DNA of 64,000 nt, taken from contig VCMS01000001.1 in the NCBI GenBank assembly GCA_022539475.1, positions 186,001 to 250,000 on the forward strand. The letters run 5' to 3'. The notes beneath the pieces are model-generated. The model had not been told where the DNA came from. It searched no databases and saw only the letters and a program-made list of their open reading frames with translations. The first letter of the stretch is position 1, and each line of letters opens with the position of its first letter. Source of the stretch: Gracilaria domingensis. Its lineage: Eukaryota > Rhodophyta > Florideophyceae > Gracilariales > Gracilariaceae. The position numbers and the translations under genes are program-made. This document shows, in pieces, positions 15,556-58,509 of the stretch.

Positions 15556-15696
15556 GAGTGGCGGAAGCAAGTGAGGCGACGCGAGGGCGGACAGCAGGCG
15601 ATAAGGAAACAGGGGGCGGGGGCGCGGGGGAGGGGGAGTGGAGGGGGTTCAGCGGAGCGGGGCGGGGTGGTGGTGCGGGAGCCGTCGCCACGCGAG

Positions 15697-32368: not shown

Positions 32369-32490
32369 AGACGGCAGGGGTAGGAAGGTGTATGGGCAGG
32401 GTGTGAAAATTTCGGGGGTCGAAGAAGTGATGTGGCAGGTTTGACAGACGCAATGTCGTGTTGACGGCTGTTGGGTGTGGGAGTTGACTG

Positions 32491-32498
32491 CTTTATAA
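32491..32498 (-). promoter_or_regulatory. TATA box of bZIP gene A
   Basis: TTATAAAG on the minus strand, 123 bp before the ATG of the gene at 30809-32368. Assigned by sequence and distance. Confidence 0.45.
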
Positions 32499-36607: not shown

Positions 36608-37423
36608 GGGGGGGGGGAGGGGGGGGAGGGGAAGAGGAAACTGCAAAGTGCCGAAAGGAAAGCAAATGCGTGCCGTCAGGAATCCTGACGAAGATATAAC
36701 AGCTGTACTGTGGACCGATGGGGCTTCCGTTTCGTGCGGAGGAGAGGGCGCGTTTTCACAGAGAAGGCGCCAGCAGCTGGCGCGACTGTGACATAAGAAG
36801 GCTACTTCACTCGTTACCCTTGTACATGACGACGCAGCGCCGCTGTTGCACCAACGGTGCGCGCCGGCAGTGTAGCTGGCTGCGAGCCATCATCGCAATT
36901 CCGTCATATGACGCATGCGCGCGCGGCGCCGTCGATTGGACGCTTTGTTCCCGGTATGGAAGCAACAGCCAATCACGATGCAGCACGCTTCCAAGCTGGC
37001 TGCAGATTTCAGCTGCTTGCTTTCAGTCTATCCTTCTGTAGCTCGCTGCCGCGCAACGCACCGCTTTGAACCTCCCGTCGCCCACTACCAACTTGGTGGT
37101 GCGCATGGTGCGAAATGTACCAAACCGAAGGTACTACAGTAATGTACAGCGCAGCATCGCGGGCCGCTGTCACTCGAGCCGATGAGCGAGTCCTCTCTCG
37201 ACAGTTAAAAAACCAAAAACAGAAAAACCGCGCACGCGACCGTGTGATGACTCGCAGTCGCATTGAAGGTAAGGTAATACTGTATCTTCGTAGAAGGCTA
37301 CGAGTCGTAGACAACGAAGGTTCGGGTAAACTAACAGCGATGCTGTTTACTACGAGACCCATACATCTTCCAACCTCCATCTAACTTTACACATGGAAGC
37401 AGCTCCTGTCGCGCCTCATCTAT
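36608..37423. other. spacer between bZIP genes B and C
   Basis: Contains a poly-G-rich run (36607-36631) in the leader of gene B, a small palindrome GCGCCAGCAGCTGGCGC (36767-36783) in its upstream region, and no supported gene. Confidence 0.5.
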
Positions 37424-39214: not shown

Positions 39215-39959
39215 TGTTTTCGGGTCGTCAAACCGCAATGAAATGCACCAGTGAAGTAAGATGATCGTCGAGACTCGGACGCGCCGACGAGCGGAAGCGG
39301 CTCTCGGATATATATGTACAGTAGCCAGGGTATCAGCAATGAGTCAACGGCAGCCTTGACACAGCACCTCGCCAGTTTGGCCCGCCACGGCGCGTTGTTC
39401 CCGCCGGTCATGGCACGCGTGCCACGGCCCTTGCGCTCGCGCCTCCAAGATACGTCCAATCAGCGCGGGCAGCCTGTTCGGTGACCTCAGCACGACGCGC
39501 ATTGGCTACGCGCGCCAATCTGGCGAGTAGCGCGCACCAATGGGCGGCACCCACGGCGCCAGCGGGTACGCCGCCACGGCGCACACGCGCCGCGGCCAGC
39601 CACGTGCTGCCATGATTGCACGAGATGCGTTTTACACGCGCATCGCCGAGGGGGGTCCTGCAAAGTGACAGTTACGGAAATTCAGTTGCAGAGTCTGTCC
39701 GCCGTCGCGCGCGGTTTCGACGGCTGAGAAAGTGCCGCCAGCCGTGACGTCCGCACGCGCCGTGAGTGCGTGCATGCCGCGGGCACGGAACAGTGGCACC
39801 CCCTCCGCGCGCCATACCCCACGCCCGCTCTCCCGCATCTCGCCCATCTCGCTCCCATACTCTCACAATCTCCAATCTAAGGTTGCGCTCAGATAGATAT
39901 TGCACGACCGAAATTCATTTACACTGCTCGGCAAACACCGCCCACGTCAACAGCCTTGC
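39215..39959. other. spacer between bZIP genes C and D
   Basis: Holds the TATA-like ATATATAT (39308-39315) of gene C and GC-rich DNA. No gene supported. Confidence 0.5.
39308..39315 (-). promoter_or_regulatory. TATA-like element of bZIP gene C
   Basis: ATATATAT, 94 bp upstream of the gene C start codon. Assigned by position only. Confidence 0.4.
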
Positions 39960-41636: not shown

Positions 41637-42708
41637 GGCGGCTGCGCACGTCGTTCAAAGTCGTCTGCAGCGAAGAAGACGGACAGCGCTCGATGTGAGC
41701 TGACGTCGGGGATGCAACAACACGCCATTCTACCGAGAACGTTGGCAAGGAAGGAAGTGCAGCCCTCTTTGAAGTACAATTTAGTCGACGTGAATCTGCT
41801 CTGTAGGCATTCAAACAAAAACACAAAGCACAGGTTAGTCACCACAATTGGGTTCTACCGGGCACCTTTGTAACAAAGGTGCCCGGTAGAACCCAATTCT
41901 GGCTGCTTTTGAGCGGATGCGGCGCTCCAACCACATGGCACAGCTTGGGAGCCGCAACGGCGGCGGACGCTGATTGGCTCTAAGCGACAGCTTGGCAAAC
42001 AATTGTTCCGTAACGCACAGTGCACGCTGGACACGTCCCCACGGGGGCCGCTGGCCAACCAGCCAGGTGGGCACGCGGCCACGTTTCGGGGCTGAGGCCG
42101 GCTTGGTGCCACGGGAAAGGCTTGTTAAGACAGGCCCTCAGAGCCCGTCAACTTCTGGGAGCATTCCATCCTCACGTCCGCGGCGCAAGCGACAACGGCT
42201 GGTGCGCGCGCGTTCGGCAACGAGCGACGCAGATACACCGCCAGCGGCAGCGCGTGGTCCGCCACCGCGAAAATCTTGCACAATCAGTGGTCGTCTTGTA
42301 AGCCACAGTGCCTCATATCTCTGTGCGTCCAAACAAATGTCTGATTCACGACCCGCAGTGCTAGTGTTACATGGCGCCTGCTCTCGAGACGCGTCTCGAA
42401 GCTGGCCGTCGACGCTTGTCGCCTTGCTACCGCCATTAATGGCTACTCCGCACTAACTTTAGCCACGTCCTCGTCAAAAAAGCAAAAGACAAAATTTCGA
42501 TCGCACGCCACACCGCGATACATACTTTTATGTAACACGTCGATCCACAGGAAAAAAGAAAAAGCAGCGCGATCGACAGATTGTGAGGGAAAAGAAGAGC
42601 ACACTAGTCCAAATCTACCTCAAACAAGCGCTTCCAATCAGAATAAGAAAAGAATGAAAGTAGAGAGAAACACAAACTATCCAATGCAAGTAGTCCCCAA
42701 GATCCGGC
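41637..42708. other. spacer between the bZIP array and the F-box-SPOC gene
   Basis: No gene supported. Contains the 25-bp inverted repeat at 41846-41898 and GC-rich DNA with chance open frames at 41974-42456. Confidence 0.5.
41846..41898. repeat. perfect 25-bp inverted repeat with 3-nt loop
   Basis: Left arm 41846-41870 and right arm 41874-41898 are exact reverse complements, separated by TAA. The arm begins AATTGGGTTCTACC and ends GGCACCTTTG. Pairing stops at both ends, so the arms are exactly 25 bp. It lies between the bZIP array and an F-box gene, outside any reading frame I support. It could be a hairpin RNA source, a foldback element remnant, or a replication/recombination scar. Confidence 0.9.
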
Positions 42709-43815
42709 TTATGGAGGGTACGCGTTTTGTACCACACCCAGTAAACTCCGGCCTTCATATTTAACGTGGCTGCGAGTGTATTCACAAGGCGGGATGAATA
42801 TAAACCGCTGTTGATCATCAAGCGCTAATCCAGCCCGTGTGCGTTTGATAAGGTACTCAATAAAGTCCTCATATCCCGCTCGATCCTGTTCCGATTCCGG
42901 TTCGAAGTACAGAACCGTCGCATCTGCCATCACAAACGCTTGCAGATGCTGCAGATTGAATCGTCTCTCAACAACTAGAACTTCCGGAAGACCACACTCT
43001 CCAATAGTCGCACCGCCAATCTGATGCGCCACTAGATTGCACATGAAGCGACCTGTCTTCTGAAGTCTGCATCGCCACTTCGGAATACGCGACGCCTTCG
43101 GATATATCATTCTCCATCGATTAGGGGAATGCGCATCCACAGTGCTGTCTATCAGCTTCCACGCGTGTATATCAGATTGTAAAGAACGCCATTGTCTAGT
43201 CACAAGTGACTTCCACTGTCTCTCACAACTAGCAAAAGCATTCCACTTAGTGCACACTTCGCGACATCTTGCAAGATTCTTGCCGTCAAGGAAGGTGAAA
43301 ATATGCTTCGTGATTTCATCCGGTAAGGTGCCAAATAACTGTTGAGGGGCAGCACTGCCGGCCGCCACTGCGTTCTTATGCATCTTGGCGGCGGCGTTAA
43401 GAGAATCAACCGCAGCCTTCTCATTCTGTAACAACAAAGTCCGAAGGGAATCTCTCAAAAAACTGGCTGAAGCGTGATGGAGCGCCGGCTTCGCTGCGAT
43501 GGAGTTGAGTAAGTTATGCAGTTGTTGCACGAGAGCAGGCACGGAATCCGGCGGAAATCGGTCCGGCTCATCCATGTCCTTGACGGAGGAACTGGCGTCA
43601 CTTTCTGCAGCGCGCAGTCGCTTGCAGTTGGGAGAAGGAGGGGCTGAGAGCTCCACGCCGTACACGGCGGGTTCTGGGAGAATGAGCATTTCGAGCTCTC
43701 CCGGTTGAGGCTTCGGAGACAACATTGAGGCGGGGCGCTTTCGGGGGTTTGGAGGGGGTGAAGAAAGGGGTGGGGGTTGTTGATGCTCTGTCGGAGTTTG
43801 GCGACGAAGCTTCAT
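42709..43815 (-). CDS. F-box protein with C-terminal SPOC-like domain (copy 1)
   Basis: A 368-residue protein from the ATG 43813-43815; the longer frame to 43947 has no ATG. Order: RKRPAS basic motif (likely nuclear signal); a helical region (about 90-150: DSVPALVQQLHNLLNSI, SASFLRDSLRTLLLQNE); an F-box (161-204, FGTLPDEITKHIFTFLDG, CREVCTKWNAFAS); then a SPOC-like domain (246-368). SPOC marks: the opening PKWRCRLQKTGRFMCNL, LPEVLVVERRFNLQHLQ, VLYFEPESEQDRAGYEDFIEYL, RFIFIPPCEYT and LLGVVQN. F-boxes bind SKP1 in SCF ubiquitin ligases; SPOC domains in SHARP/SPEN and PHF3 bind phosphoserine peptides through conserved basic residues, here probably in ERRF. A substrate-reading SCF adaptor is inferred. 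Homologous throughout to the gene at 55828-57258. Confidence 0.85.
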   Translation of the reverse strand: MKLRRQTPTEHQQPPPLSSPPPNPRKRPASMLSPKPQPGELEMLILPEPAVYGVELSAPPSPNCKRLRAAESDASSSVKDMDEPDRFPPDSVPALVQQLHNLLNSIAAKPALHHASASFLRDSLRTLLLQNEKAAVDSLNAAAKMHKNAVAAGSAAPQQLFGTLPDEITKHIFTFLDGKNLARCREVCTKWNAFASCERQWKSLVTRQWRSLQSDIHAWKLIDSTVDAHSPNRWRMIYPKASRIPKWRCRLQKTGRFMCNLVAHQIGGATIGECGLPEVLVVERRFNLQHLQAFVMADATVLYFEPESEQDRAGYEDFIEYLIKRTRAGLALDDQQRFIFIPPCEYTRSHVKYEGRSLLGVVQNAYPP

Positions 43816-44967
43816 GAGAACATCGCCGGAGCGAAGAGGGGGAAGCTTAGATTTGAGGAGCGTGCGAACCGAGGCGAAGCAAAATACGGCGGGGATGGCG
43901 TGAAGGGGAGGGGTTGTGTGGGTGGGATTCGACAAGGCGGCGAGCAAGAGGAAACGGACGCGAGACGGGACTCGACGGAAGGGACGGAAAGTTGGGAAGA
44001 ACGGCCAAGCTGGAACGGGAGGGTTGTCAAGGCGCAGCGGACGCGACGGCGAGGCTGGGCGGAAGTGGAGGGTTTAGGTGGGGGCGGGGACAAGTGGGAC
44101 TGTCGCCTCAACACTGAAAAGCGCTTTTGGCACAACGAAGCGAAAGCGGCCGTCTCGGAAGAAAGGGAGTGTGCAGCAGAAGCAACAAGTCAACGCAACC
44201 AATCGGGCGTAATTGGCACGCCGTGTGCGCGTGGTTTACGCACACGCGTTGCGTCGCACGTCTGGACACGTGGAAGCAGCCGCCCTTTTTCCGCCGTGCG
44301 TTGCTGTGACCGACCGTTATCGCGCTGTAAGTCGCGCACGTCTCCGTATCCGAACTTCGGATTCCGAAGGCTGCCGCCACCGCAGAAAAATCCACCTTTC
44401 GCGCGGGCGCGGCGGAACAGTCTCGAACCCTGTACACCCGCTGCCGCGCCGGTAGCCGTCAGCAATAAATAGTTCCCGCGACGTTCAGTCGGCTGCCGGC
44501 GGGCGTCGCGTCCCGCTGTCATCCGAGCGGAGGCAGGGTTGTGCGAATGCTACAGCTGGATCGAAAGCCCTCGCTTGCGCACGTAGAAGACTTGCCCTAC
44601 GGAAGCCTCTGTACCTGCGACATGCGTCGCGGAGGTGACGTTTGACACTCGTACAAAGTTGGAAGTACCGGGGGAGGCCATGACTGGAGCACCTTGATTC
44701 CGCGCAGTGGCTGGCTGTAGGAACACGAGTTCGAGTGGCGGTGAGGATCACTCGCGGTTTCTGCGGTGGCAAACCACAATCTTTTGCCCTTTTTTAACCT
44801 AAAAGGGAGACGCCTACCTGAAACACTGTTTAATAAACAGATCACATATCACATATCACACGAAACATTCTGTTGTTATCCTGCACACTTCCACAAGTTA
44901 CTTTAAGCTAGATATCTACATACGGTCACAGCTCTCCAACGACTGGAAACCAAACCGACACCACCGC
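43816..44967. other. spacer with GC-rich promoter DNA
   Basis: Upstream region of F-box copy 1 and 3' flank of GNL1. Open frames here overlap on both strands and look compositional. No gene supported. Confidence 0.5.
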
Positions 44968-46767
44968 TCACTCACTGTCGAGCAGCAAGAAAGCGTTGCC
45001 ACCCACGCGCGAGCTATTAACGCTCGTACCCAACTCGTTGTCGCCATCACTTTCACTACTGCTATCGCTATCGCTATCGCTATCGCTATCACTATCGCTC
45101 ACACTTTCACTTTTACGGTTCACATCCACCATCGTAGTGGCCCCCTTGTTTGAAAACAAATCCTCAGCTTCATCCTCGCCCAGCTCGTCCACATAACCCG
45201 GCGGAACCGTAGCCAGCACAATTCGTCCATCCAGCGCCAACCGCAAAATGCTATTCGCCGCCCTGAACACATCCAGTCTTGCCGCCTTGGCCGTACGGAA
45301 CCCTCGCTTCAACGCCCACGCTTCACAAATCTTCCATCCCGTCCATCCATCGCTAATATATCCTTCTTCCTGCACATATTCTTCCAGTCTATGTACTACA
45401 ACGTCCAACCCCAGTACGTCCGTCAACGGCACGCGTTCTGCCAGATACTTCACAGCAGCATACGGTTCTCGAACCTGACTGATAGGGTACATTCCCGACA
45501 GAATCTGTAGTTCCCGTGGCGCTCGCCCAGGGAAAACCAACCCTGGGCAGTCACACAATCGAACACTATCTGAAAGGAAAATAGTTTGAAAGTGCTTCGT
45601 ATGCCCCGGAGTGCGACTCGTGCTCACAACCTTCTTCTGAAAAATCCCATTGATCAGACTAGATTTGCCGGCGTTAGGATGCCCAACAATTCCGATGGTG
45701 ATCATATCAGCGCGTGTACCGTCCTCGTCCGACTCCTCTACTCTGTATCCTTCCGTTTGCCCCTTAGATGTATACACTTCCTCGTCTGAGACGTCACTGT
45801 CGTGATTGATGTGCCTTGGCATGCTTCTCTGTCTGCATCGGCCCAGTATCGCTGCACCTTCGTCATCAGAGTCAACCAGCTGACCTCTCCACTCATCTAA
45901 GTACGCTCGTCTCCTGGCATCCAAAGGCAAAGACTTGATAGCGGCCAACAACTGGTCAGCGCCCCACGCGGCCAGCTTCGAGCGAGCCATGCGCCGCTCG
46001 CGCTTGCTCAGCAGTTCCGAGTTTGCATCTTCAGGACGCAATTTTGCATCCGGGTACGAACTGAACATTGCGATAGCCAGCTCCGGATACAAACGTTCAA
46101 AGTACGAGCGCCATGCATGCAGCAGTGAGTTGGATACCAGGTCACACTTATTAAGCGCTAGAACCATACCCTTGCCGAGTTCTTGACAATAATTGTACAA
46201 GTCCGGCACGAAATGCAACGCTGGAAAGCGAACGTCTGCCACAAGAACCAGAACATCCGAGCGTTCAACGACGCGCCACAGCTGACGCCAAGTCTCCAAG
46301 TTTCGTTCAAAGTAAGAATCTGTTTGTACGGATTGAATCCATGTTTGCAACGCCTTTCTTTCGCGAATGTCCAGCTGCTCTACATTATCCTCGTATCTCC
46401 ACGCTGGTCTTCTCGGCATGCGGAAACCATTCGGTCTCACCTCGGGCACAGACATCTCTGGCAGCTTCTGCGGTTCCAGAGGAACGAACGCAAGGTGACG
46501 GTCATTGGCGCGGTTCTGCGAAGAGTTATCTGTGAGATGAAGACGGTAGCGCTGAGGGTTCTGGCGCGGAGCTCGACCGCGAGCACGACGTGGCGTGGCG
46601 TTGGCCGTCGAGGACGGAGAGTGCAGGGCTGGCAACGAGGCTGCGTTGGCAGAGAGGGAGGGTTTGGAGGTATGAGGAAGAGAAGAGGGGTGCTTGGAAG
46701 TAGCAGCTAAGCGCTTCTGCTTCAGCTGCTCGCGCTTTTGCTTTGCGGAGAAAGGTTTCTTGCCCAT
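44968..46767 (-). CDS. GNL1-type circularly permuted GTPase
   Basis: A 599-residue protein of the HSR1/MMR1 GTPase group, linked in eukaryotes to ribosome biogenesis and nucleolar shuttling. The start at ATG 46765-46767 gives MGKKPFSAKQKREQLKQKR, the basic N-terminus typical of GNL1; a longer frame begins with GTG only. GTPase motifs come in permuted order: G4 LALNKCDLV first, then G1 GHPNAGKSSLING, the switch region TSRTPGHTKHFQTI and G3 DCPGLVFPG. An acidic insert lies between G4 and G1 (DSDDEGA, DSDVSDEEVY). The C-terminus has a Ser-Asp repeat run encoded by a TATCGC hexanucleotide repeat (about 45059-45096). No intron. Confidence 0.92.
   Translation of the reverse strand: MGKKPFSAKQKREQLKQKRLAATSKHPSSLPHTSKPSLSANAASLPALHSPSSTANATPRRARGRAPRQNPQRYRLHLTDNSSQNRANDRHLAFVPLEPQKLPEMSVPEVRPNGFRMPRRPAWRYEDNVEQLDIRERKALQTWIQSVQTDSYFERNLETWRQLWRVVERSDVLVLVADVRFPALHFVPDLYNYCQELGKGMVLALNKCDLVSNSLLHAWRSYFERLYPELAIAMFSSYPDAKLRPEDANSELLSKRERRMARSKLAAWGADQLLAAIKSLPLDARRRAYLDEWRGQLVDSDDEGAAILGRCRQRSMPRHINHDSDVSDEEVYTSKGQTEGYRVEESDEDGTRADMITIGIVGHPNAGKSSLINGIFQKKVVSTSRTPGHTKHFQTIFLSDSVRLCDCPGLVFPGRAPRELQILSGMYPISQVREPYAAVKYLAERVPLTDVLGLDVVVHRLEEYVQEEGYISDGWTGWKICEAWALKRGFRTAKAARLDVFRAANSILRLALDGRIVLATVPPGYVDELGEDEAEDLFSNKGATTMVDVNRKSESVSDSDSDSDSDSDSSSESDGDNELGTSVNSSRVGGNAFLLLDSE
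45057..45102. repeat. hexanucleotide repeat inside GNL1
   Basis: Tandem CTATCG units on the plus strand encode the alternating Ser-Asp tract near the C-terminus of the GNL1 protein. Being a multiple of 3, length changes would keep the frame. Confidence 0.8.
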
Positions 46768-47362
46768 CGTGAAAGCAATGTACGACGGTTCGTGCACAAT
46801 GTGCGCCGCCGGCGACGGGGCATGAAGCGCGTGTATCTGAGTTTTATCCCAGTCTGCCACCGTTTCGCGCGGCGTGGGAACGGCCGTGTTGCTGCACGTG
46901 TGCTACGGAAATGGACCCCATAAACAGAAGTTTCTCGCACATTGGCATCGGCCAATCACCGGGGCTCAATCATACTCGCAGCCGTCGAGCACGTGGTTGC
47001 AGCCTCGTGTAAGTTTTTCCGTACTGTTTTGGACAACTGTACCTTTGGCACTTTTGTGGATATTTTTTGCCTGCTCGGTGCTTTCAGTGCGCGGAACGTT
47101 TGTGTACAGCTGTCCAATTTTGCACGTTTTGTCTCTGTTCTTGTGGAAATCCAGTATGCGTTTCAAATTCCACCAAAGTAGTAAGTTTTAAAAACTTTCG
47201 TGGCTACCAATTATTTGGAACGTTTACACACGTCGAACAGAGCTGCCGCGCCTAGCGCCGTCGCATCGTCTCCACCCAACCGTATATAAACAAGGGCAAT
47301 CCAAAGGTGGACCCGCCTTCGTCAAGATACAACCTGCAGTGTTGATACATCTTTTCTACAAC
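46768..47362. other. divergent spacer between GNL1 and a putative plus-strand gene
   Basis: Contains the GNL1 promoter and, at 47283-47290, a TATA box pointing to a plus-strand transcript. No coding frame supported. Confidence 0.45.
47283..47290 (+). promoter_or_regulatory. strong TATA box of an unassigned plus-strand gene
   Basis: TATATAAA lies 73 bp before an ATG (47363) that is followed after five codons by a consensus GTAAGT splice donor. The combination suggests a real transcript start about 30 bp downstream of the TATA box. Confidence 0.5.
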
Positions 47363-47545
47363 ATGCCGAAGAGAATGGTAAGTCACTCAACTTCTGCCTT
47401 TGTCGAGAGAATTCAGTCTGGGTCACAACGCGGCTAAGCGTACTGTCCTCCACCTCTGGCGGAGGCATGCCCTTGTCGCTCGCTATCCTACACGTCTGCG
47501 GGAACGTCACATCAATGGCGCCAGAATCCCTTACGGAAGACTGTA
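47363..47545 (+). CDS. putative small spliced gene starting MPKRM (structure uncertain)
   Basis: A tiny first exon, ATG CCG AAG AGA ATG (47363-47377), is followed by GTAAGT. After a short candidate intron, one frame reads an Arg-rich sequence (RTVLHLWRRHALVARYPTRL and onward) to a TAG at about 47543-47545. The acceptor that joins in phase 0 is AAG ending at 47438, which is weak. A second acceptor (TTCAG at 47416) does not keep the frame. A basic, short, spliced gene with a strong TATA box resembles ribosomal protein genes, but I do not recognise the product. The true second exon may lie further downstream. Confidence 0.25.
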
Positions 47546-48186
47546 GATCAACCCTCAACACGGTATATTCTGTGATCTGGTCGGAACGGCTTAGTTTCGT
47601 TTTGCCGGCACGGGTGAAACCATACCTTGTACACTTTCCCGGATCAACACACTATCTGCTGCTTGTACTAACTTGACCTTTTCTATTTGTTCAATTCGTT
47701 GCTCGTTGAGAAGGTTACGAGTACGATGAAGAAACACAACACAACCCCGGCACTTCCACAATCGTTTATCTAGGACCACTTCCTGTGTTCCTCCCAAGTA
47801 ATGCAGCGATCATATCTTGCGCTAACACATTGTGCAGCTGATACACTAACATTATGACTCGTAGAAATCAAGAACTGTCGATGCGGGTGACATGGTTTGC
47901 TCCATTGTTGGATGTAAATATAGTTCTATATAGAGAAGGTTCATTTACAGCATATCTTCACTTACATCTTAATCGAAAGTTGAAAGTAAAGTCATGGCCT
48001 GATCTCATCATATTGTCAGATCTGGGGCCGCAGACTTTTCCCCTCTTGCCAATAAGTTCGGAATAGGTCACATTTAAATGAGTTGAGAGCACAGTGAGTC
48101 AAAACTTGGATCTAACAATTGTCACATATTGATCCCAAGAGCGTGAACGTCGCTCCAAGATGTCGCTTCAGGGTCACTTCGAACAG
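47546..48186. other. spacer before the RPB3 gene end
   Basis: No gene supported. Later exons of the putative gene starting at 47363 could lie here. Confidence 0.4.
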
Positions 48187-49113
48187 TTAATGTATGTGGG
48201 CCATGACATTATCGACGCGCTTCTTCAACAGATCAAGCGCCATCAAAAGCGACGAGTTTGGTGTCATGGACCCAGTAGTCTCCGCATTGAAATCAAAGCG
48301 CTCGGGATTCGAATTATAGCGGATTACTTCACTTGGTTTCCCACCTGCTTCAGTTATTAGTTCTCCAGCCCTTCGCGTAGTATCTGGAGTAATTCCTATT
48401 CTTCCCTTCAGAAACGGTTCTTCGTATTGTAAAATACCATTAGAAACCCTCAACAGCCCTTGAGAGTACTTTGCCAAATCATTCTTGGCAACGACATCAA
48501 GCATAGAGTTCAGTCTCTCCAATATCAGCTCTACCGCGGGTGGCACTATTCTGTATGACACCGTGCACATTGGAGACCACTTGGCATGGTCTTTTCCAAT
48601 GCCTTTTCTTGCAACGCATTGGATATCAAGCCTTTGAGAACTTGAAAGGCGTGCGATTAGAATACCGTTTCCTGAGTCTGACTCGTCGCCAGAGTCATGT
48701 ATTGGTTTCACTTCGTGACACCAGTCATCTGTTTCTGCATTAGAGCACGTTAAATCCTTACTGGTCACACTACGAACACTTCCAGATGGTGGAACGTGTA
48801 CTTGCAAGACAAAAGACACAGAGCAGTTTGAGCAAAAATCGTCGCATTGTTCGCAGTCGAAGCTGTAGTCAAACCGATCCACATTCTCAGAATATAATGG
48901 GATAAGCCCGAGGCGGTGAGCTATATATTCATCATGTAACGCGGAAGTGTTTTCTTTCACAGTGACAAGATCGATTGCCATGGTCGGTACTTCAGAAATC
49001 ATAGTCCTTCGGATCGCATTTGCCATAGAAACATCTGTTCCTGTCAAGGAGAAGCTCATGTGAAAGCGATTAGACTCCTTCACTTCCAGATTTGGTTGTC
49101 TCCCGAATGGCAT
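48187..49113 (-). CDS. RPB3: RNA polymerase II subunit RPB3
   Basis: A 308-residue protein, the alpha-like assembly subunit that pairs with RPB11 in RNA polymerase II. Start at the ATG 49111-49113; three codons upstream are open only through GTG. Marks: FSLTGTDVSMANAIRRTMISEVPTMAID (alpha-motif region), HRLGLIPL, the zinc loop CEQCDDFCSNC (C-x2-C-x3-C-x2-C), an insert domain, KWSPMCTVSYRI, and a C-terminal helical LLMALDLLKKRVDNV. The insert includes a Ser/Asp/Gly-rich loop (HDSGDESDSGN). RPB3 and not RPAC1 is supported by the zinc cysteines and length. No intron. Confidence 0.95.
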   Translation of the reverse strand: MPFGRQPNLEVKESNRFHMSFSLTGTDVSMANAIRRTMISEVPTMAIDLVTVKENTSALHDEYIAHRLGLIPLYSENVDRFDYSFDCEQCDDFCSNCSVSFVLQVHVPPSGSVRSVTSKDLTCSNAETDDWCHEVKPIHDSGDESDSGNGILIARLSSSQRLDIQCVARKGIGKDHAKWSPMCTVSYRIVPPAVELILERLNSMLDVVAKNDLAKYSQGLLRVSNGILQYEEPFLKGRIGITPDTTRRAGELITEAGGKPSEVIRYNSNPERFDFNAETTGSMTPNSSLLMALDLLKKRVDNVMAHIH

Positions 49114-49657
49114 CGTGAACACCTACCCTTTCAACGTGGGGACTTCCTGTCTGTAAAGCAAGTCGGCTCGAGCATTCACTCTTCTTACTTTTCAGTTCGG
49201 TGGGCAAGGGTGCATGGGGGCCTAGCAATTTGGTAAGACCGACCGAGAGAATTGAGAGCCGACGTAGATGACATCTGATGACCTTTTCAAGACGTACTGT
49301 GGGATCAACGTTCTTCGAGAGCTTTCAAAATAGCTTTTTTGAACGTGCCCCATTAATTTGTAGCACTGCGAAATTGCATACAGGGGTGAGGGCTACTGCT
49401 TCGTCGAGGGACACAGGGCACCTCCAGGTGCCAAAGATATCGACTTGTGACTGTTCCAGTCGAGCACCAAATTGTTCCCAACGGGCTGAGACGGTAGGGC
49501 GGGCCGCTCATTATATCGAGGAGCCGGTCTGTTAGCCTACATGCGAAGTAACGACTCCGTGGGCAACCAATCGTCTCTCAATCGCAAACGAGAGGGATAG
49601 AGGGAAATTATAATCGTGGTAGATCCACAGATACACCCATCCGTTCCAGCCCGCGCT
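49114..49657. other. divergent promoter region
   Basis: Between RPB3 (minus) and the small membrane protein (plus). Contains a small palindrome GGCACCTCCAGGTGCC (49417-49432). No gene supported. Confidence 0.5.
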
Positions 49658-50086
49658 ATGCATGCAACATTCCGAGTGCTCCGAGCTGCTCAAGCAATGG
49701 CATCCCCAGATGCATCCCGTATTGTATCAGAAGCTGCAAAACGGGCTTCGCAGCGGCGAAAGAGACCGAGAGGTCTGCGCAAATACTCTGATCTGATCGT
49801 TGTTGGACTCGCCACAGTTGTGGCCGCTACGGCCGTCAAGAACAAGCATGCATATGAGGAGACTCGCGAGAAAATGGAATTGAGAATAGAACAACTTGAA
49901 GAGGAAAGAGACGTTGCTTTGACAGAAATTGATCGCACACAGCAAAGACTTTTGACCGCTGTGCAGGAAGGCGTGGATGTCGCAAGAAGAAACGGAGGAC
50001 AGGGGTTACATAACTGGATAAAGAGTGCGTTTAATGAGCCTTGTTTGCAAGAGGGAGAAACAAGGGAGAAACCAAGCGTTATTTGA
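49658..50086 (+). CDS. small single-pass membrane protein with coiled coil
   Basis: A 142-residue protein from the ATG at 49658 (the frame runs back to 49616 through GTG). The first 40 residues are basic with few acids and could target mitochondria or plastids. A membrane segment follows (LIVVGLATVVAATAV), then a charged helix predicted to form a coiled coil (REKMELRIEQLEEERDVALTEIDRTQQRLL). The C-terminal 30 residues are hydrophilic. I do not recognise the family. It is probably an organelle membrane protein, but location is inference. Confidence 0.6.
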   Translation: MHATFRVLRAAQAMASPDASRIVSEAAKRASQRRKRPRGLRKYSDLIVVGLATVVAATAVKNKHAYEETREKMELRIEQLEEERDVALTEIDRTQQRLLTAVQEGVDVARRNGGQGLHNWIKSAFNEPCLQEGETREKPSVI

Positions 50087-50431
50087 TCATGTTGTAATCG
50101 TTTCTAAAGGTATTGATATGCAACGTTGTGGGCATTCTGTACAATGTCACGAATGAATGCTGACTTTTCCCTGATGGACTCCGTCGACTAGAGAACTCAG
50201 CGAGAGCAGAAGACAAACACCACCTCTCAATACAGTTGCCACAATTTTGTCGGCGTCACCTATAAGTACTTCGACCGCTAGGTACAGGTAATGTCATGCG
50301 CCAAACATCGATTGCAACCAAATACAATGTCAGCCTGCACAGTTTTAAATCTTATAGTCATGAGCTCTATCTCTACGCAATCGCACGTTTAGAAACCTGT
50401 GGCACTAGGCGTCGCTTATTAGCTCTCTTTC
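50087..50431. other. convergent spacer
   Basis: 3' flanks of two small convergent genes. No feature recognised. Confidence 0.45.
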
Positions 50432-50827
50432 TCAGTCCCTCACTTCAGCTTCCTGTCTTTGCAGTTTAGCTTTTTGCCTTTCCCGTTCAGCTACTTTAGG
50501 GTGCCACATGACCCCTGGTAGTTTCACAGGATACCTCTTGTGTTTCTCATTAACATCAGGTTCGTCTTCCTTCCTTACATTGTCAAACATAACAGCTAGG
50601 GCATTCTTACTATGCTTTGCGTAGCGCTCCGCTTCCCAATTTTTCTTAAGATGTTGTTCCATTTCTTCTTTTGTTTGCTCCGAGGCGACATCAGTAGCGA
50701 TCTGCGATCCTTTGGCGAACAAATAACCACCGGCGACTGTCACCGCAGAGAAAGCCAGGAGAATTTTTGGATCGCGAGTTGCTCTTACAATAGCCCGCCA
50801 AGTAGCAGTCTCATAGAGGTATGCCAT
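50432..50827 (-). CDS. small conserved-looking protein with one N-terminal membrane segment
   Basis: A 131-residue protein with ATG at 50825-50827. It starts MAYLYETATWRAIVRATRDP, followed by a membrane segment (KILLAFSAVTVAGGYLFA) and a long charged C-terminal half rich in Lys and Glu (KHSKNALAVMF, YPVKLPGVMWHPK, ending in a helix with many Lys, Arg and Gln). The short aromatic N-terminus and a single anchor suggest a small organelle membrane protein. The order of features recalls uncharacterised plant and algal proteins, but I cannot name one. The gene is divergent from SLX1. Confidence 0.65.
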   Translation of the reverse strand: MAYLYETATWRAIVRATRDPKILLAFSAVTVAGGYLFAKGSQIATDVASEQTKEEMEQHLKKNWEAERYAKHSKNALAVMFDNVRKEDEPDVNEKHKRYPVKLPGVMWHPKVAERERQKAKLQRQEAEVRD

Positions 50828-51334
50828 TTCCCTCTGCCCACAGGATAAACTTTAGCTTTTTCCTTAAAGCTCTAGGATCTCAAAGTCACCTTGCGTGGCA
50901 GCGTTGATCTCATGACGAAGGGAAACAGGTGCGTTTGACCGTTCGTTCGAATCTGACGGCGTTGGAAAAGGATAAAAATTTAAATTCAAGTACGAACGCT
51001 TCGGGCTTTGTACAGGGGTACGTCTACGCTGAGCGTAGTACGCTCTACCATTTCCCTGGTCAATATGGTCGTCCAAAACGATATATACAAAACCGGGTTC
51101 AACTTGAACCTGGTTTAAACTAACCTGGTTCAACCCTTCAAGTGGTTCTGATAGGCATTGGTCCACAAACACGCTGGAAACATCTCGCACTAAATAGACT
51201 CACACTACAATCGAAGCAGTCGCTTCCCTAAACTGCTCAGCAGCTTGACAAATTCCCGCTTGTTAAACATTATCGCCTGCCGTGGCTCCTCTAATTCTGG
51301 ACTATTCAGCACATTCTATCTCACATAAAGGGAT
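50828..51334. other. divergent promoter region with short repeats
   Basis: Contains AACCTGGTT twice and a GGTTCAA/TTGAACC dyad (about 51080-51132). No gene supported. Confidence 0.5.
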
Positions 51335-52177
51335 ATGGGGGACCACCGACTGGAGAGATATATCAATGAAGATTCCGTAGCCTCTTCGTTACCGTCTCAG
51401 GATCAGTTGCCCACTCAAGACGGCCCTCCCCGACTTCTAGCTTGTTACCTTCTTGTCTCTCTCTCCCCAAAACGCGGTTCGAAGAATCGCACATATATTG
51501 GATTTACAGTGGACCCAGCCCGTCGAATTCGTCAACACAACGGTGAAGTGATAGCGGGCGCACGTCGAACATCACGTCATCGACCATGGGAAATGGTGGC
51601 CGTAGTGCATGGTTTCTCCTCAAAAACGCAAGCATTGCAGTTTGAATGGGCATGGCAGAACCCAGAAAAATGTATCCCTTTGAAATGGCACAAAGACCGA
51701 TCAGACGCCCTGCCCGCACCTGAAAAGGGAAGATTTACCCCCAGTGGCTGTTTACGAAGCCTTGCCGCGCTACTTAGCGTTCCGCCCTGGTCACATTGTC
51801 CGCTTACTCCGACAATAACAGCCAAGAGGGAGGATTGGAGCAAATGGAATATCGATAAGATTACATTCCCAGCACATAAACAAGTGGAATTCGGAACCCT
51901 CACAGAGTTTCGAAGCGGACCATATAACTATCGGCGAGACTGCAAAACACTCCCGAATCAGGGTCCATGTATAGTTTGTTCGAAAATAACTCTGGGCAGG
52001 GCTCGGACCTTTTGCGCCGCCTGTGGAGCAATGAGCCATTTGTCTTGCATGGCCAGGTGTTCGTCTGGGCCAAAAGGCAAAATGCTTCCCGACTGCGTAA
52101 CATGTCCATCCTGCAAGAGCGGGATACATTGGTCTCTTTTCGTAAGAATGTGTCGAGCCCTTGAAGAATGGGACTGA
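51335..52177 (+). CDS. SLX1: SLX1-type structure-specific endonuclease subunit
   Basis: A 280-residue protein with an ATG at 51335. It is the catalytic subunit that, with SLX4, cuts branched DNA such as Holliday junctions and flaps. GIY-YIG nuclease domain (about 30-115): YLLVS stands for the GIY strand, TYIGFT for [15 protein letters not shown] carries the catalytic Arg, and QFEWAWQNP the metal-binding Glu. C-terminal RING-like zinc domain: [16 protein letters not shown] and [13 protein letters not shown]. The gene is convergent with the RFC gene; the two stops are 122 bp apart. No intron. Confidence 0.93.
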
Positions 52178-52299
52178 GGAATGATGTGTAACAGCAGCGT
52201 AGGAGAAGCATACGTTTGCTCACCGAGGAGAAACCTGTAAACTTTTGATAACTTTTGATACTCAAGCGTTTGATATATCACTTAAGTCACATTGTGATA

Positions 52300-53370
52300 T
52301 CAGCAAACCATTTTGTCCATCGAAATCGCCTGACCAAGTTTAAAACATCCAACCAGTGCTGCAAGGTTTAACTTGTCATTTCCTCCAACAGCAAGCCGTA
52401 CCTCAATTTCAGCAAGCCGTTCAAAAACATACATCTTCCCTTCACCCCTCATTTTAGAGTTCGCAACATGAGGAAAAATCTCCGTGATAATATCCAGAAG
52501 CGCCAGACCTTTAACCCTTCTCAGTTGATCCAACTGTTTGCAGCACGTCCCATAGTCCTCGTCCATCAAAAGCCTTAAAATGTCGGTGATGTCTGCCGGA
52601 TGTGGAGCTCCTGTATTCGCATAGACCGCATCGCCAGTGACCTTACCTCCTGTAGCAGAAGCGGCCATATGTGAACTTTGCAGGACGTTCAGGATACGCC
52701 TCATATCACCGTTGCCAAGTTCAAGTAGAGCTTCTAAGCCTTCTTCTGTTAGAGGAACATTCTCTTTGTCTGCAATTTCACGTACGCGACTTCGCACATC
52801 GTCTCGTGGAAGCGGGCCGAAACGAAACTTGGTACAGCGACTCTGCAAAGCCGGAATAATCTTGTTGACGTAATTACATATGATACAAAAGCGTGTGCTT
52901 GCGGAAAACTTTTCAACCACCCTTCGAAGAGCCATCTGAGCGGCACTTGTCATAGCATCAGCTTCATCCAGAACGACCAACTTGACGCCCGAAGAGAACA
53001 TTCGACGTGTAGAAGCAAAACTCTTGATTTGATCGCGAACAACCAATATACCTCGATCATCGGAGGCATTGAGCTCAAGAATCATGTTCTTGTACGACGG
53101 ACCGTACACTTCTTTCGCGCAAGCGAGAATGGTGGAGGTTTTCCCCGTTCCAGGCGGACCGCAAAACAGTAGATGAGGGAGCCGATTTTTTGAAATAAGA
53201 GCCTTCAAGGTGCTGATGATCTGCTGGTGGGACAGCAAGTCCGAGAGTGTTTCTGGACGATACTTTTCTACCCACATGAGCGATTGGGTGGACTTGGTCT
53301 TCGAGGGGTTCTCCGACACGTTGGAGGTTGGTTTGCCCGGCTCAACCTCCATGATTTCCGGATCTTCCAT
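52300..53370 (-). CDS. replication factor C small subunit (RFC5 / yeast Rfc3 type)
   Basis: A 356-residue AAA+ ATPase, one of the four small subunits of the clamp loader that opens PCNA rings. ATG at 53368-53370. Marks: WVEKYRPETLSDLLSHQQII, Walker A CGPPGTGKTST, LNASDDRGILVVRDQIK, Walker B LVVLDEADAM, sensor 1 region FCIICNYVNKIIPALQSRCTKFRF with the SRC Arg-finger motif, and GDMRRILNVLQ. The LNASDDRGI and CNYVNKIIPALQSRC wording points to the RFC5/Rfc3 member. A 30-residue hydrophilic N-terminus precedes the fold. No intron. Confidence 0.94.
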   Translation of the reverse strand: MEDPEIMEVEPGKPTSNVSENPSKTKSTQSLMWVEKYRPETLSDLLSHQQIISTLKALISKNRLPHLLFCGPPGTGKTSTILACAKEVYGPSYKNMILELNASDDRGILVVRDQIKSFASTRRMFSSGVKLVVLDEADAMTSAAQMALRRVVEKFSASTRFCIICNYVNKIIPALQSRCTKFRFGPLPRDDVRSRVREIADKENVPLTEEGLEALLELGNGDMRRILNVLQSSHMAASATGGKVTGDAVYANTGAPHPADITDILRLLMDEDYGTCCKQLDQLRRVKGLALLDIITEIFPHVANSKMRGEGKMYVFERLAEIEVRLAVGGNDKLNLAALVGCFKLGQAISMDKMVC

Positions 53371-53929
53371 GCTGGGAAACGTTTAGCGACGGAGAGAGGG
53401 TGTTGGAGGAAGTTGAGGGGCTTGCTGAGGGAGGTGAAGGTGAAATGGACAAGCCTGTACCGTTGTACGCCTGTCCAGTGGGGTTGACACCGTACAGGGC
53501 TACGATAGTGCTACTGTTTCGGTTGCAGAGGGCTTCTCCCGCCAAAAAGCTGGAGTGTGGAGCGAATTTGGCAGTACTGTAAGTATGGCAGGGTACAGAG
53601 GCGTACAGCAATGAAGTTTTGCGGCAATATAGCAGATAATTTGGGGTGGTCATTAGAGGCTCGGAATTCGAGCTTGGTAGGGGAAGTGCTCTTCGCCTGG
53701 AACAGCCACACTGCAATTGGCGAACGTTGCACCACGGCGAACTCTCCGATGCATCAACCGTTCTCAGAACCATTCAAAGCGTCTGGCCGCTGTCGCAGAG
53801 CGCCGTAAACAACGCTGTCACCGTAAGTGCAAGCGCGCGTGCGTCGAGCTCGTGCGCACCGTCGCTCTCTTTGCTCGCCGTCGGTAGCGCGCCACAGCCG
53901 ATGCGCTGCGCGTTGCACGCTTCGCAGCC
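53371..53929. other. divergent promoter region
   Basis: Between the RFC gene (minus) and F-box copy 2 (plus). Open frames here overlap on both strands. No gene supported. Confidence 0.5.
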
Positions 53930-54574
53930 ATGGACCTCATGGATATTGAGCGCCATTACACCATCGACAATCTACCAGACTGCGTCATGCGCCAGATTTT
54001 CACATATCTCACGCCAGAAGAGCTCGAAATCAGTAGACAGGTGTGTACAAGATGGAACGCGAACGCAGCACACCACAGTCTGTGGCGCAACCATTGTTTC
54101 AGGCACTCGCCCAGTCTGCGAACAGAGCGGACAGCATGGCCTGTTCTGGCGTGCTGCGAGCCTGCTTACCCCATCCCGTGGCGTCATGTGTTCCGAACGC
54201 TGCAGAACCGACCGAGATGGATTGTTCCATTGCACAAGTCGGGGCGCTTTTTGTGCAACATGATTGTGCACCTGATTCAGGGGCCTTACGCCGAGGTTCC
54301 GGAGGTTCTGATGGTGAAACGCAGGCTTGACATGATGCATCTGCCGTTGTTTCTCAGCGGTACATGCACTTATTTTTACTTGGAGCCGCTTGATGAAGCG
54401 GACAACGGGCCCTACGAAGATTTTGTGCAGTATCTGTTAAAGAGAGACAGGGCCGGTTTGGTACTGCTGCCCAAGAGCAAAGTGATGCTGATCCCACCGT
54501 GTAGAGTTCTGCGGCAGAGAGTGAATTACTCGGGCGAACGTATGATTGGAGTTGTTCAGAGTATGCGCGTCTAG
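53930..54574 (+). CDS. F-box protein with C-terminal SPOC-like domain (copy 2, short form)
   Basis: A 214-residue protein from the ATG at 53930. It lacks the long N-terminal region of the other two copies and goes straight into an F-box (13-57: IDNLPDCVMRQIFTYLTPEE, SRQVCTRWNANAA, LWRNHC). After about 35 residues comes the SPOC-like domain (94-214: RWIVPLHKSGRFLCNMIVHL, VPEVLMVKRRLDMMHLPLFL, CTYFYLEPLDEADNGPYEDF, KVMLIPPCRVL, RMIGVVQS). The basic pair KRR stands where SHARP uses arginines to hold phosphoserine. It may be a divergent paralogue. It is on the same strand as the copy about 1.2 kb downstream. Confidence 0.82.
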   Translation: MDLMDIERHYTIDNLPDCVMRQIFTYLTPEELEISRQVCTRWNANAAHHSLWRNHCFRHSPSLRTERTAWPVLACCEPAYPIPWRHVFRTLQNRPRWIVPLHKSGRFLCNMIVHLIQGPYAEVPEVLMVKRRLDMMHLPLFLSGTCTYFYLEPLDEADNGPYEDFVQYLLKRDRAGLVLLPKSKVMLIPPCRVLRQRVNYSGERMIGVVQSMRV

Positions 54575-55827
54575 GTGTGATGGTGTGCGTTTGTACTCAC
54601 GGAAGGACTGCGCCCCCTTATGAGGGGTGCAAACTGAATGCGCACGCTGGAAGTTGTCTACTAACTGAGAAGGCTGTCAGCGAGAGCATCGCAGCGCGTT
54701 TGATGGCTCGGTGCTTGTGATCCATAAGCGGAGATTGTACTAGTGCATTAGAGCTTGTTTGCGCGGCTGCAGCCGTTGAAGGGAGGAGACGAGCACGCCA
54801 AGAAAGGGCTCCATCGATAGCCGGAAACGGCACGCAGCCGCTTGTACCTTTTTGTGTAGAGTAACGACGATATTTTTGAAACGATGACAAGAAGTTATGT
54901 ACGATGCACTGTATCGGGTGTCCCTAGCCCCAGCACAGTCTCGCCGTCTGCACACACGTTGGACGCAACGGAAGACGTGGTCGAGCATGACCACGCGGCG
55001 GCGTGCGACATGAAACGGATCAGCGCGCTCACGAGCGATGACGCGCTGCCGTTTTCAATTTTGAAAGTTTGGCCGGATTCAGCAGCCGCAACGTGGACGC
55101 GCGCGTGGCGGTTTACACCGCAATCAGGACAGCCTGTCGGCGCGCCTCGCGCGGGCGCGCGCCACACGCGCCCGCCCACCGCCGCCCACACAACGCGCAC
55201 GCGTCCGCGCGCGTTCGCGCCGCGCCGACAAAGCACACAACCCTGCGCCGCCGAGCCCCCCCCCTTCCCCGCCCGCGCCGCCCGTTCCCAGCCAGCGTCG
55301 CCCGCCTCGCCCCCGAGAGTGTGCTTCTTCGTGCGCCCGCCCTGCCTGTCTTGCGTTGCGCGCGTGCAAAACCCTTCGTCGCCCGCACCGCTTTGCGCTT
55401 GCGTTGGCGCGCCGTCGCGTGTGTGTGCGCCGCCTTCCGTTGACGCGCTTCCTTACCTTCGTTGCGCCCGCGAGCGGCAGCACGTTGCACCCCCACCCTC
55501 CGCCACCCCCTTCACCCCCAGCCTTCCTCCTCCATCACACCCCCCCCCTACACCCCCGCCCCTCCCCCACAGCCCTCGCACCGCGCCTTCTACCCGCGTG
55601 CGCGCCTCGACTGTGTCCTTGTCATACCGTTGCACTCCGTGTGGGCGTGTGTGTTGTTTGTGTGTGTGCGCGCAGCCGTGCAAATCAATTTCCTTTTTGG
55701 GCGCCCTTGGCACGCGCGTTGGCCTTTAGCTTCCATTTCGTGTCGTCCCATTCGTACGTGCTTTGCTTGACGCCTTCATTTCATCATCACCATCTTCCCA
55801 TTGCCGCCTTGTCGCGGTCATGTACTA
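54575..55827. other. GC-rich spacer and promoter of F-box copy 3
   Basis: Strongly CpG- and C-rich DNA, especially 55130-55720, with long overlapping open frames in all six frames (up to 281 codons) that read as Pro/Arg/Ala compositional noise. No gene supported. Confidence 0.55.
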
Positions 55828-57258
55828 ATGAGGCTTGGAAACTCGTCTGATCACGCCCACTATCCATCCCGTCTTCGACTTGACCACCCACAGCAAATTC
55901 ACTCGCTTCCACGTCGCTCGCTCCCATCCCTTCACCCCCGCCCCTCTTCAACGCTCCTCCCCCGCTACCCTTCCCCGCTTGTCGCTTCCCCACCCCCACA
56001 CCTCTCCGCTCAACCGCGCCCGTCCGCCTCGCGTAAGCGACCCGCCTCTCTCATGTTCAACTTCTCCAAGCCTGCCTCCCGCCCGCGAGCAGCCTCGGAG
56101 CAGCCAATACAAGTGCTCACCGACTTGGACAATCACCACCGCCCAGACCACTCGCAACTGCCGTATCCTCGTGACCACCGCTCGCAACTGCAACAGCGAC
56201 ATCTTCCCCTTCACCAGTGCACCGACGTTGTGCACCACTCGCATGATCTGCGTGACGACGACGATGCCGCTTCACACCTCTTTCCTTTCCACGAACCACT
56301 GCTTGGAAGCCCTAGCACCGCCGCTAAACGCATGAGGTCGTGTGCCGACTCCGACACGGGAAGCTCCAGCTGCAGAGACTTCGACGAGCCTGAAGTTGTC
56401 GCGCCTGACTCCGTCCCCGCTTTGGTCAATGACGTCAAACGTATGCTGGACTATGTTTCGAGCAAGCCCTCGCTGCAGAGTGGCTCCGCCAGTTTCCTAC
56501 GCGACTATCTGCGCACAATGCTCATGCAGAATGCACACTCCGCATCGGAGGCCATTCAGGCAGCGAGTAAGGCTCACCGAGCTGAAGTTATTGCCGGCCG
56601 TCGGAAATCGAGAGAGCCCTTCAATAAGATTCCGGATGAGATTGCAAAGCACGTGTTTGCCTTTCTTGGTGGTAGAGACCTTGCGCGTGCGCGCGAAGTT
56701 TGTAAGAGGTGGAATGACTTTGCAAGTGAAGAGCGTCTTTGGAAGAGACTATGCACCCAGAATTGGAGCTCATTAGAAACAGACCAAGCTCTGTGGCGCA
56801 TTCTGGATAAGAACATTACCATGGGAGATCCCAACTGCTGGCGCAACATCTTTCCAAAGATTGAGAAGACTCCGAAATGGACATGTCGCCTTCAAAAGAC
56901 GGGCCGCTTCATTTGTAACTTGATTGCACATCAAATCTCTGGTACTCCCATTGGCGATGTCGGTTTGCCGAATGTTTTGGTTGTGGAACGAAGGTTTAAT
57001 ATCGTCCATCTACAGACCTTCATACTCAATGATGCTTCTGTTCTTTACTTTGAACCAGAATCAGAAGAGGACCGTCATGGCTTTGACGAATTCATTGAGT
57101 ATCTCAACAAGAGAACACGTGCTGGACTTGCATTAGAGGAGCAACGGAGGTTCATCTTCATTCCGCCATGTGACTATACCCGTACGCAGATAGATTACCA
57201 TGGGCGCAGTCTTCTTGGTGTCGTACAAAACGCCTACAACCCACTTGGACCTTTATGA
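55828..57258 (+). CDS. F-box protein with C-terminal SPOC-like domain (copy 3)
   Basis: A 476-residue protein from the ATG at 55828 (the frame opens at 55801 through TTG). The N-terminal 150 residues are Pro/His/Ser-rich and include SRKRPAS, matching RKRPAS of copy 1 and a likely nuclear signal. A helical region with DSVPALVNDVKRMLDYVS and SASFLRDYLRTMLMQN, shared with copy 1, comes next. It is followed by an F-box (about 267-312: FNKIPDEIAKHVFAFLGG, REVCKRWNDFAS) and a SPOC-like domain (about 351-476: PKWTCRLQKTGRFICNL, LPNVLVVERRFNIVHLQ, VLYFEPESEEDRHGFDEF, RFIFIPPCDYT, LLGVVQN). The start is uncertain because the N-terminus is low-complexity and GC-rich; initiation further downstream (MFNFSKP) is possible. 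Confidence 0.84.
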   Translation: MRLGNSSDHAHYPSRLRLDHPQQIHSLPRRSLPSLHPRPSSTLLPRYPSPLVASPPPHLSAQPRPSASRKRPASLMFNFSKPASRPRAASEQPIQVLTDLDNHHRPDHSQLPYPRDHRSQLQQRHLPLHQCTDVVHHSHDLRDDDDAASHLFPFHEPLLGSPSTAAKRMRSCADSDTGSSSCRDFDEPEVVAPDSVPALVNDVKRMLDYVSSKPSLQSGSASFLRDYLRTMLMQNAHSASEAIQAASKAHRAEVIAGRRKSREPFNKIPDEIAKHVFAFLGGRDLARAREVCKRWNDFASEERLWKRLCTQNWSSLETDQALWRILDKNITMGDPNCWRNIFPKIEKTPKWTCRLQKTGRFICNLIAHQISGTPIGDVGLPNVLVVERRFNIVHLQTFILNDASVLYFEPESEEDRHGFDEFIEYLNKRTRAGLALEEQRRFIFIPPCDYTRTQIDYHGRSLLGVVQNAYNPLGPL

Positions 57259-58509
57259 ATATCGCTCGCAGTACGTGTTCTTGTGTGGAGTATTGTATTC
57301 AACGAAAGTCCGTAGATTACCTATTGCAGCAGTCATACCCTTGTAGCGTCGAGATTAAAAGGAAACATTTAAGAGTTCACCTGAAGCTTTGTCTCTATCG
57401 CTGATATGATTTGCCGCGTCATGAGCTGCCTTTGCAGGTAGATTTGAGAAATATCAACTAATGTTTCACAAGAGAGTAAATGCCTTGAGCGTGCTGTTGT
57501 GAAGGAAACACAGTCTTCGTGCACCGCGCTGTCTTAACTGGGAGACAGAACCCCCCTTTCTAAACGTTCCGTGTTGCAAAAACATTGTTCGTCCAGGACA
57601 TCATTTTCTAATGACAGGACGTGGCTGATCGCTGACGTAATTGTAATTGTGCTTTGAAGACTATATCTTTGATACTTTTGATCTTCGTCCGGATCCTCCT
57701 AGGACAAACCATATGCCGAGTGCGAGGAAAATTTTCAGAGTGCATCCTCAATCTAAGCGACGCGTTGCCAAAGGCATAAACTAATGTTTCACATGCTTCA
57801 TATTGCTGTATTGTATGTATAATTTACTTTGCTGGGTTCATGCGTTAGACGTCTGTTTTATGATTTCATGAGTCTCCTCAAGGTATTCAAAGAAGATGAC
57901 GTTCAACACAAGTTATGACACAACATATAAAACAGCTTCAGCAATATGAACCTAAGTAATGCTCGAACGAACAAAGCGTCACTTCCCATTTTCTGTTCCA
58001 CGTCCACTGACTGTTGCATTTGGGCACCTTGATACACAGCTTGTATTTAGAGGATGAAAAGAGATGCGATCTCCTATAATGAAAAGCAAGAAAGCCCTTA
58101 CGCCTGGTCAAATTCTTCGCATTTCCCGCGAAGCACACTAAGCTGTATCGATCTTTGTTTCAGCAGTTTGGCCGAGGTCGTGTCACGTTTAATAGATTTA
58201 TTTAGGACCTGCATTCACCTGTCTGTCACAGAAAACTGCAGGAGAATATCAGAGACTGAATAATGCAGGGGTAACCAAAAATCTTGTTCGTCGCCAGAAT
58301 ATGAACTTGAAATCAATCGGATGGTTGACTCGTGGTGCACGGCGTTGTTCTTGCAAGCACGTCAGGAGCTATGACCACGCACCACAATACAAGCGAGTGA
58401 GGATTTGAGTGGCCGTGATTACACAAGAACGATGCAAGTATTGCTCGAAGAGTGATAGAGATTCGGAACACCTAGGACTGGCTTGAGAACCTCCCTCCTT
58501 CTGATGAAA
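57259..58509. other. gene-poor spacer
   Basis: 1.25 kb of AT-richer DNA with no supported gene; the longest frames are under 70 codons. Confidence 0.55.

Follow-up and report, generated by a model that had tools for sequence, protein, structure and literature searches.

Can an F-box and a SPOC domain be parts of one and the same protein, and if so, what would such a protein do? The question is raised by three genes in a stretch of 64,000 nucleotides from the red alga Gracilaria domingensis (assembly GCA_022539475.1, contig VCMS01000001.1, positions 186,001 to 250,000, forward strand). This whole stretch is called the window here. It is part of contig C1, in a genome of 77.9 Mb in 680 contigs. 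An earlier note on this DNA read the three genes as F-box proteins that end in a SPOC-like domain. Judging from the sequence, the fusion is real, and the family may well consist of receptors of SCF (SKP1-cullin-F-box) ubiquitin ligases that recognize phosphoserine, a reading to which we give a probability of roughly 55%.

The first gene (FS1 or copy 1, P0001) lies at 42709 to 43815 on the minus strand and encodes 368 amino acids. The other two are on the plus strand. Copy 2 (FS2, P0002), at 53930 to 54574, is a minimal form of 214 amino acids, in which an F-box is followed by SPOC, and copy 3 (FS3, P0003), at 55828 to 57258, encodes 476 amino acids. Each gene is one open frame. In copies 1, 2 and 3 respectively, the Pfam F-box-like profile (PF12937) matches with E values of 1.1e-12, 5.1e-13 and 8.8e-15, and the SPOC profile (PF07744) with 1.7e-11, 3.1e-7 and 6.2e-11. 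All six matches exceed the curated Pfam cut-offs, which bears out the architecture that had been proposed for the three genes.

The F-box takes up residues 162-206 of copy 1 (43198 to 43332, minus strand; 48 bits, cut-off 24.3), residues 12-58 of copy 2 (53963 to 54103, plus strand; 49 bits) and residues 266-310 of copy 3 (56623 to 56757, plus strand; 54.7 bits). SPOC follows at residues 247-368 of copy 1 (42712 to 43077, minus strand), where it scores 44.7 bits against a cut-off of 25. In copy 2 it covers residues 97-214 (54218 to 54571, plus strand), with 30.9 bits over residues 108-196, and in copy 3 residues 351-476 (56878 to 57255, plus strand), with 42.9 bits over residues 349-449. The short strings that the earlier note had quoted as marks of SPOC are found in copies 1 and 3. 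They do not hold for copy 2, which has the variants VPEVLMVKRRL, LEPLDEADN, LIPPCRVLR and GVVQ.

Which SPOC domain is this? PHF3 and SHARP had been named for comparison, but the nearest by sequence is that of the plant protein FPA. When copy 1 is compared with the PDB, the SPOC domain of Arabidopsis FPA (5kxf) comes out best, with an E value of 4e-9 over residues 247-368, followed by known F-box proteins. A profile made from all three copies also finds FPA SPOC best (E 1.9e-11). Its listed matches up to E 5 are 44 PDB sequences, none of them a chain of SHARP or PHF3. Against a profile of five SPOC regions, which includes two further copies described below, FPA scores 46.7 bits. As a control for chance, 1499 of 2000 shuffled FPA sequences were reported with this profile, the best of them at 8.9 bits, and reversed FPA was unreported. 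Conversely, FPA SPOC as a query on the genome, with E 10 as the limit and five candidates being scored, finds the five F-box genes only, with E values from 1.1e-8 to 5.4e-4. Identity to FPA is 28-33% across the five copies, and 29-33% for copies 1 to 4.

The company that SPOC keeps here is different. In proteins of the PHF3/DIDO type, TFIIS-like and PHD domains accompany SPOC. Copies 1 to 3 and the frames scanned for copies 4 and 5 have no Pfam match, up to E 1, to either of these or to the RRM that is a trait of Spen proteins. FPA itself belongs to the Spen proteins and has RRMs at its N-terminus (PMC4981400); the copies have an F-box instead.

The family extends beyond the window. SPOC matches in the genome are the three in the window, two on contig C28 (copy 4 in L003 and copy 5 in L004) and one on contig C286 (L005). 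Copies 4 and 5 also have an F-box, with E values of 1.2e-14 and 9e-15, and PF12937 and PF07744 are over their cut-offs in all five loci. The genome-wide counts are lower bounds, so the fusion accounts for at least five of at least six SPOC matches, and for at least five of at least 16 F-box-like matches. The five fusion F-boxes rank within the best eight of the 16 found.

Frames around ten of the 11 other F-box matches were scanned for partner domains, a partial match on C8 being left out. Leucine-rich repeats were found in two of these, ankyrin in one, FBO_C in one and a sub-threshold WD40-like match in one, and five have no recognized partner. SPOC is absent from all ten. The remaining SPOC locus, L005, scores 28.7 bits, which is above the cut-off, and is 20% identical to FPA; no F-box match was found on C286. 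The part of its 1141-residue frame that was scanned (665 residues) has an RRM match that stays sub-threshold, at 14.5 bits against a cut-off of 20.7, and its SPOC region matches no PDB chain up to E 10. Relatives of the F-box-SPOC genes were not found in viral, bacterial and archaeal contig collections.

How the copies arose can be seen in part from their DNA. Copy 4 is 85% identical to copy 3 over 629 bases, beginning about at the F-box. The flanks of these two copies have no DNA similarity at E 1e-5, and where the window copies resemble copy 4 in their DNA, they do so within coding sequence only. On a possible repeat-driven origin, no ungapped repeat of at least 40 bases was reported in 42000 to 58000.

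Copies 4 and 5 lie within an inverted duplication, with identities of 97.6% over 2668 bases, 93.6% over 1172 and 95.7% over 233. Its arms on C28, L033 (about 166.5 to 175.5 kb) and L034 (about 208.5 to 217.5 kb), are about 42 kb apart and carry neighbouring frames too. Copy 5 looks like a decaying copy: a stop interrupts the segment ahead of its F-box, its end comes early, at GVVQ, and one residue of the basic patch discussed below is changed.

Purifying selection maintains the F-box-SPOC proteins. All counts of nonsynonymous (dN) and synonymous (dS) change leave out gapped codons and stops. For copies 3 and 4 the dN/dS is 0.175 over 255 codons; about 43 of these precede the F-box and are possibly non-homologous. 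By part, dN against dS in this pair is 0.086/0.784 for the F-box, 0.059/0.551 for the joining segment and 0.105/0.596 for SPOC. In the more distant pair of copies 1 and 3, 82% of the synonymous sites in SPOC differ, which is saturated, against 19% of the nonsynonymous ones. For the F-box the corresponding figures are 89% and 27%, and in the joining segment 47% of nonsynonymous sites differ. Nonsynonymous change is thus lowest in SPOC, which makes it the most constrained part in that pair, but not in the closer pair of copies 3 and 4. Copies 4 and 5 have a dN/dS of 0.62, on few differences, as would be expected if one of the two is decaying.

Could separate F-box and SPOC genes merely appear to be fused, through an error of gene model or assembly? 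Copies 1 to 4 are uninterrupted single frames, the five loci are on two contigs, and nonsynonymous change is below synonymous change in both domains and also in the segment that joins them. The artefact is therefore largely refuted, and we regard it as very improbable indeed. On the evidence of genomic reading frames, as distinct from transcripts, the fusion itself can be taken as real: both domains stand in one reading frame at five paralogous loci, one of which is decaying.

It also appears to be new. The earlier note knew of no described F-box-SPOC fusion, and none was found in searches of full-text papers from PMC; domain-architecture databases and eukaryotic proteomes were outside the scope of this search, and an unannotated precedent may exist. 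The only PMC paper found with both 'SPOC domain' and 'F-box domain' has them, in the text concerned, in unrelated gene lists (PMC9768952).

What such a protein might bind may be judged in part from the surface of its SPOC domain. In FPA, the electropositive sub-patch of this surface is made up of Lys447, Arg477, Tyr515 and Arg521, with Arg477 and Tyr515 common to SHARP (Zhang et al., PMC4981400). A hydrophobic sub-patch, of His486, Thr478, Val524 and Phe534, is given in the same paper (PMC4981400). FPA numbering was counted here from Trp441, and the letters of the PDB match fit all eight of these residues.

All four electropositive residues are identical to FPA in copy 1 (K253, R285, Y321, R327), copy 2 (K103, R132, Y168, R174), copy 3 (K357, R389, Y425, R431) and copy 4. 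Copy 5 has a valine at the R521 equivalent as its sole changed patch residue, and the equivalent of R477 is kept in all five copies. The hypergeometric probability of this patch identity lies between 0.006 and 0.011 in each of the first four copies and is 0.067 in copy 5 and 0.026 in L005, where it should be kept in mind that the copies are related and not independent.

The R477 equivalents R3552 in SHARP and R1248 in PHF3 are reported to anchor phosphoserine, and their replacement abolishes or weakens binding (Appel et al., PMC9834408; PMC8526623). Via FPA, the copies keep the equivalents of R1248/R3552 and of Y1291/Y3602, and in this they resemble the phosphoserine readers PHF3, DIDO, SHARP and RBM15. 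The kept patch residues lend indirect support to a selection of targets by phosphoserine. They differ from these in their domain partners, and in that no PHF3 or SHARP chain is among their PDB matches.

The C-terminal domains of F-box proteins are of many kinds. Those F-box proteins that are best known for reading phosphodegrons use WD40 or leucine-rich repeats; beta-TrCP and FBW7/Cdc4, for example, combine an F-box with WD40 and bind phosphodegrons. The copies share with these two the order of an F-box N-terminal to a C-terminal domain, one that in the copies is expected to bind phosphopeptide, and their F-box regions match the PDB chains of both. The difference is that SPOC stands in place of WD40 or leucine-rich repeats.

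From this the following mechanism can be proposed. The F-box-SPOC proteins would be substrate receptors of an SCF ubiquitin ligase, with the F-box binding SKP1 and the C-terminal SPOC occupying the place that WD40 or leucine-rich repeats have in other F-box proteins. The basic patch of SPOC (K253, R285, Y321 and R327 in copy 1) would bind a phosphoserine segment of the target. That target, probably nuclear, would be ubiquitinated after being marked by a kinase. What we infer in this scheme is the binding to SKP1 and to phosphoserine, the nuclear location, and which proteins are the targets.

The other components of such a ligase are encoded in the genome. SKP1 is on C168 (PF01466, E 2.7e-18), with a likely upstream exon seen by eye. 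There are six cullin matches, three of them nearly full-length in one piece, and an RBX1-type RING is the best of 35 zf-rbx1 matches, with an E value of 1e-19.

Copies 1 and 3 have more than the two domains. From its N-terminus, copy 1 has a low-complexity part with basic KR motifs (by eye), a helix-like region, the F-box and SPOC. By alignment, the helix-like region (so called by eye) is common to copy 1, at residues ~86-155 (43351 to 43560, minus strand), and copy 3, at residues ~192-262 (56401 to 56613, plus strand), and is without counterpart in copy 2. With copy 3 as the query it has no other match in the genome at E 0.01, and a copy 3 fragment has weak PDB matches only, the best at E 0.092, so that it has no named relative. 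The D-domain of beta-TrCP has a role in dimerization; a similar role for this region was considered and is supported by no result.

Some F-box proteins act outside SCF complexes. The F-box could likewise use SKP1 in some other role here, such as a scaffold or in recruitment to chromatin, or the proteins could act without SKP1, and the long N-termini of copies 1 and 3 could do other work. That the five F-box matches rank so high among the 16, in a genome that has SKP1, cullins and an RBX1-type RING, speaks against this, and we consider it improbable.

Several results weigh against the proposal of SCF receptors that recognize phosphoserine. AlphaFold gave a mean pLDDT (predicted local distance difference test) of 38.6 for the three full proteins and of 37.5 for the five SPOC regions, which is too low to confirm the folds, probably for want of relatives. 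No conclusion is taken from either model, and the SPOC fold of these copies is a prediction from sequence profiles. The one cullin that was compared with the PDB scores Cullin-3 slightly above Cullin-1, so that a CUL1 orthologue is at present putative. In the hydrophobic sub-patch, H486, T478, V524 and F534 are identical in no copy, with the positions of V524 and F534 staying hydrophobic. L005, a SPOC protein that is not an F-box protein, keeps three of the four electropositive residues (K, R and R), with serine for tyrosine, which means that the patch is no peculiarity of the fused proteins.

The remaining points concern SPOC domains elsewhere. FPA in which two patch residues were replaced (R477A;Y515A) was still able to restore the functions tested (PMC4981400), so that some SPOC domains may do without the patch. 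A SPOC domain can also bind an unphosphorylated acidic motif, and that of SHARP binds SMRT strongly without serine phosphorylation, via extra acidic contacts (PMC9834408). The results on the FPA mutant and on SHARP would suit SCF receptors whose SPOC binds a fixed partner independently of phosphorylation, for example through an acidic LSD-like motif, and so brings a constant complex to the ligase. Set against this are the electropositive sub-patch, kept whole in four copies, and the results of Appel et al. (PMC9834408), who tested five human SPOC domains and found that all but SPOCD1 bind phosphopeptides. A fixed partner of this kind is on balance rather unlikely.

If SPOC in this family does recognize phosphoserine, could the target be the tail of RNA polymerase II, as had been suggested? 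RPB1 is taken to be gene L008 on C228, the best of six RNA_pol_Rpb1_5 matches, which ends in an SP-rich tail; its last 369 residues were examined. They contain 41 SP dipeptides and eight heptad-like motifs, among which two pairs are spaced seven residues. There is no YSPTSPS, and the two occurrences of YSPTSP are 32 residues apart. Instead of a consensus heptad array, the tail has a run of YAASPA units.

If an SCF adaptor read this tail in its phosphorylated form, transcription state would be tied to ubiquitination. The SP dipeptides and the heptad-like motifs, with their two spaced pairs, speak for this, and one phosphorylated repeat suffices for SHARP, but at the same time the affinity of SHARP for the carboxy-terminal domain (CTD) of RPB1 is modest, with a dissociation constant of about 24 uM (PMC9834408). 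Most red algae are reported to be missing a conserved CTD (PMC1326215). Together with the few heptads in this tail, this makes a reading of two adjacent heptads, as in PHF3, unlikely; PHF3-type reading of the CTD differs from what is seen here in that the RPB1 of this alga is without consensus heptads. Reading of single phosphoserines in the tail is possible. The suggested coupling to the polymerase tail is accordingly weak, and as an account of the family it is doubtful.

The window holds other genes. A signal recognition particle RNA gene, at 44495 to 44784 on the plus strand (Rfam Metazoa_SRP, 95.3 bits), lies past the 5' end of copy 1, at a distance of about 700 bases. Four neighbouring paralogues lie at 30809 to 32665, 34988 to 36646, 37424 to 39238 and 39960 to 41636, all on the minus strand. 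They share an N-terminal region with CxxC and CxC motifs, have a C-terminus that resembles bZIP, and are 24-35% identical to the first of them; Pfam bZIP matches in one only, below its cut-off. At 12313 to 15570, also on the minus strand, about 1085 residues are encoded, in which an NB-ARC match (E 3.2e-11) comes first and WD40-type matches follow; we take this to be an APAF1-like arrangement. A scan for promoters and terminators of the bacterial type was set aside, as these are irrelevant in a eukaryote.

Elsewhere in the genome, ten of the 12 phycobilisome matches are on contig C680. A phycocyanin beta on this contig closely resembles solved phycocyanins. A phycoerythrin-type beta subunit has R- and B-phycoerythrins among its close matches, and the chain of its top match is labelled 'Bacterial fluorescent protein beta'. 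These phycobiliproteins fit a red alga, phycoerythrin being what sets red algae apart from glaucophytes.

A wider picture may be drawn, in which a class of SCF receptors reads phosphodegrons with SPOC in place of WD40 or leucine-rich repeats, is amplified in this red alga, and acts on nuclear machinery for transcription or RNA processing, possibly including the SP-rich, heptad-poor tail of RPB1. This is speculative, and taken as a whole it is not likely. With few members and compact proteins, of which copy 2 has 214 residues, the family allows binding of SKP1 and of phosphopeptides to be tested directly with recombinant protein. If the proposal of phosphoserine-recognizing receptors is true, SCF ligases would gain a further phosphopeptide fold, and SPOC would have a part in the destruction of proteins. 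The fusion suggests a route, of which no description was found, by which phosphorylated proteins may be marked for destruction.

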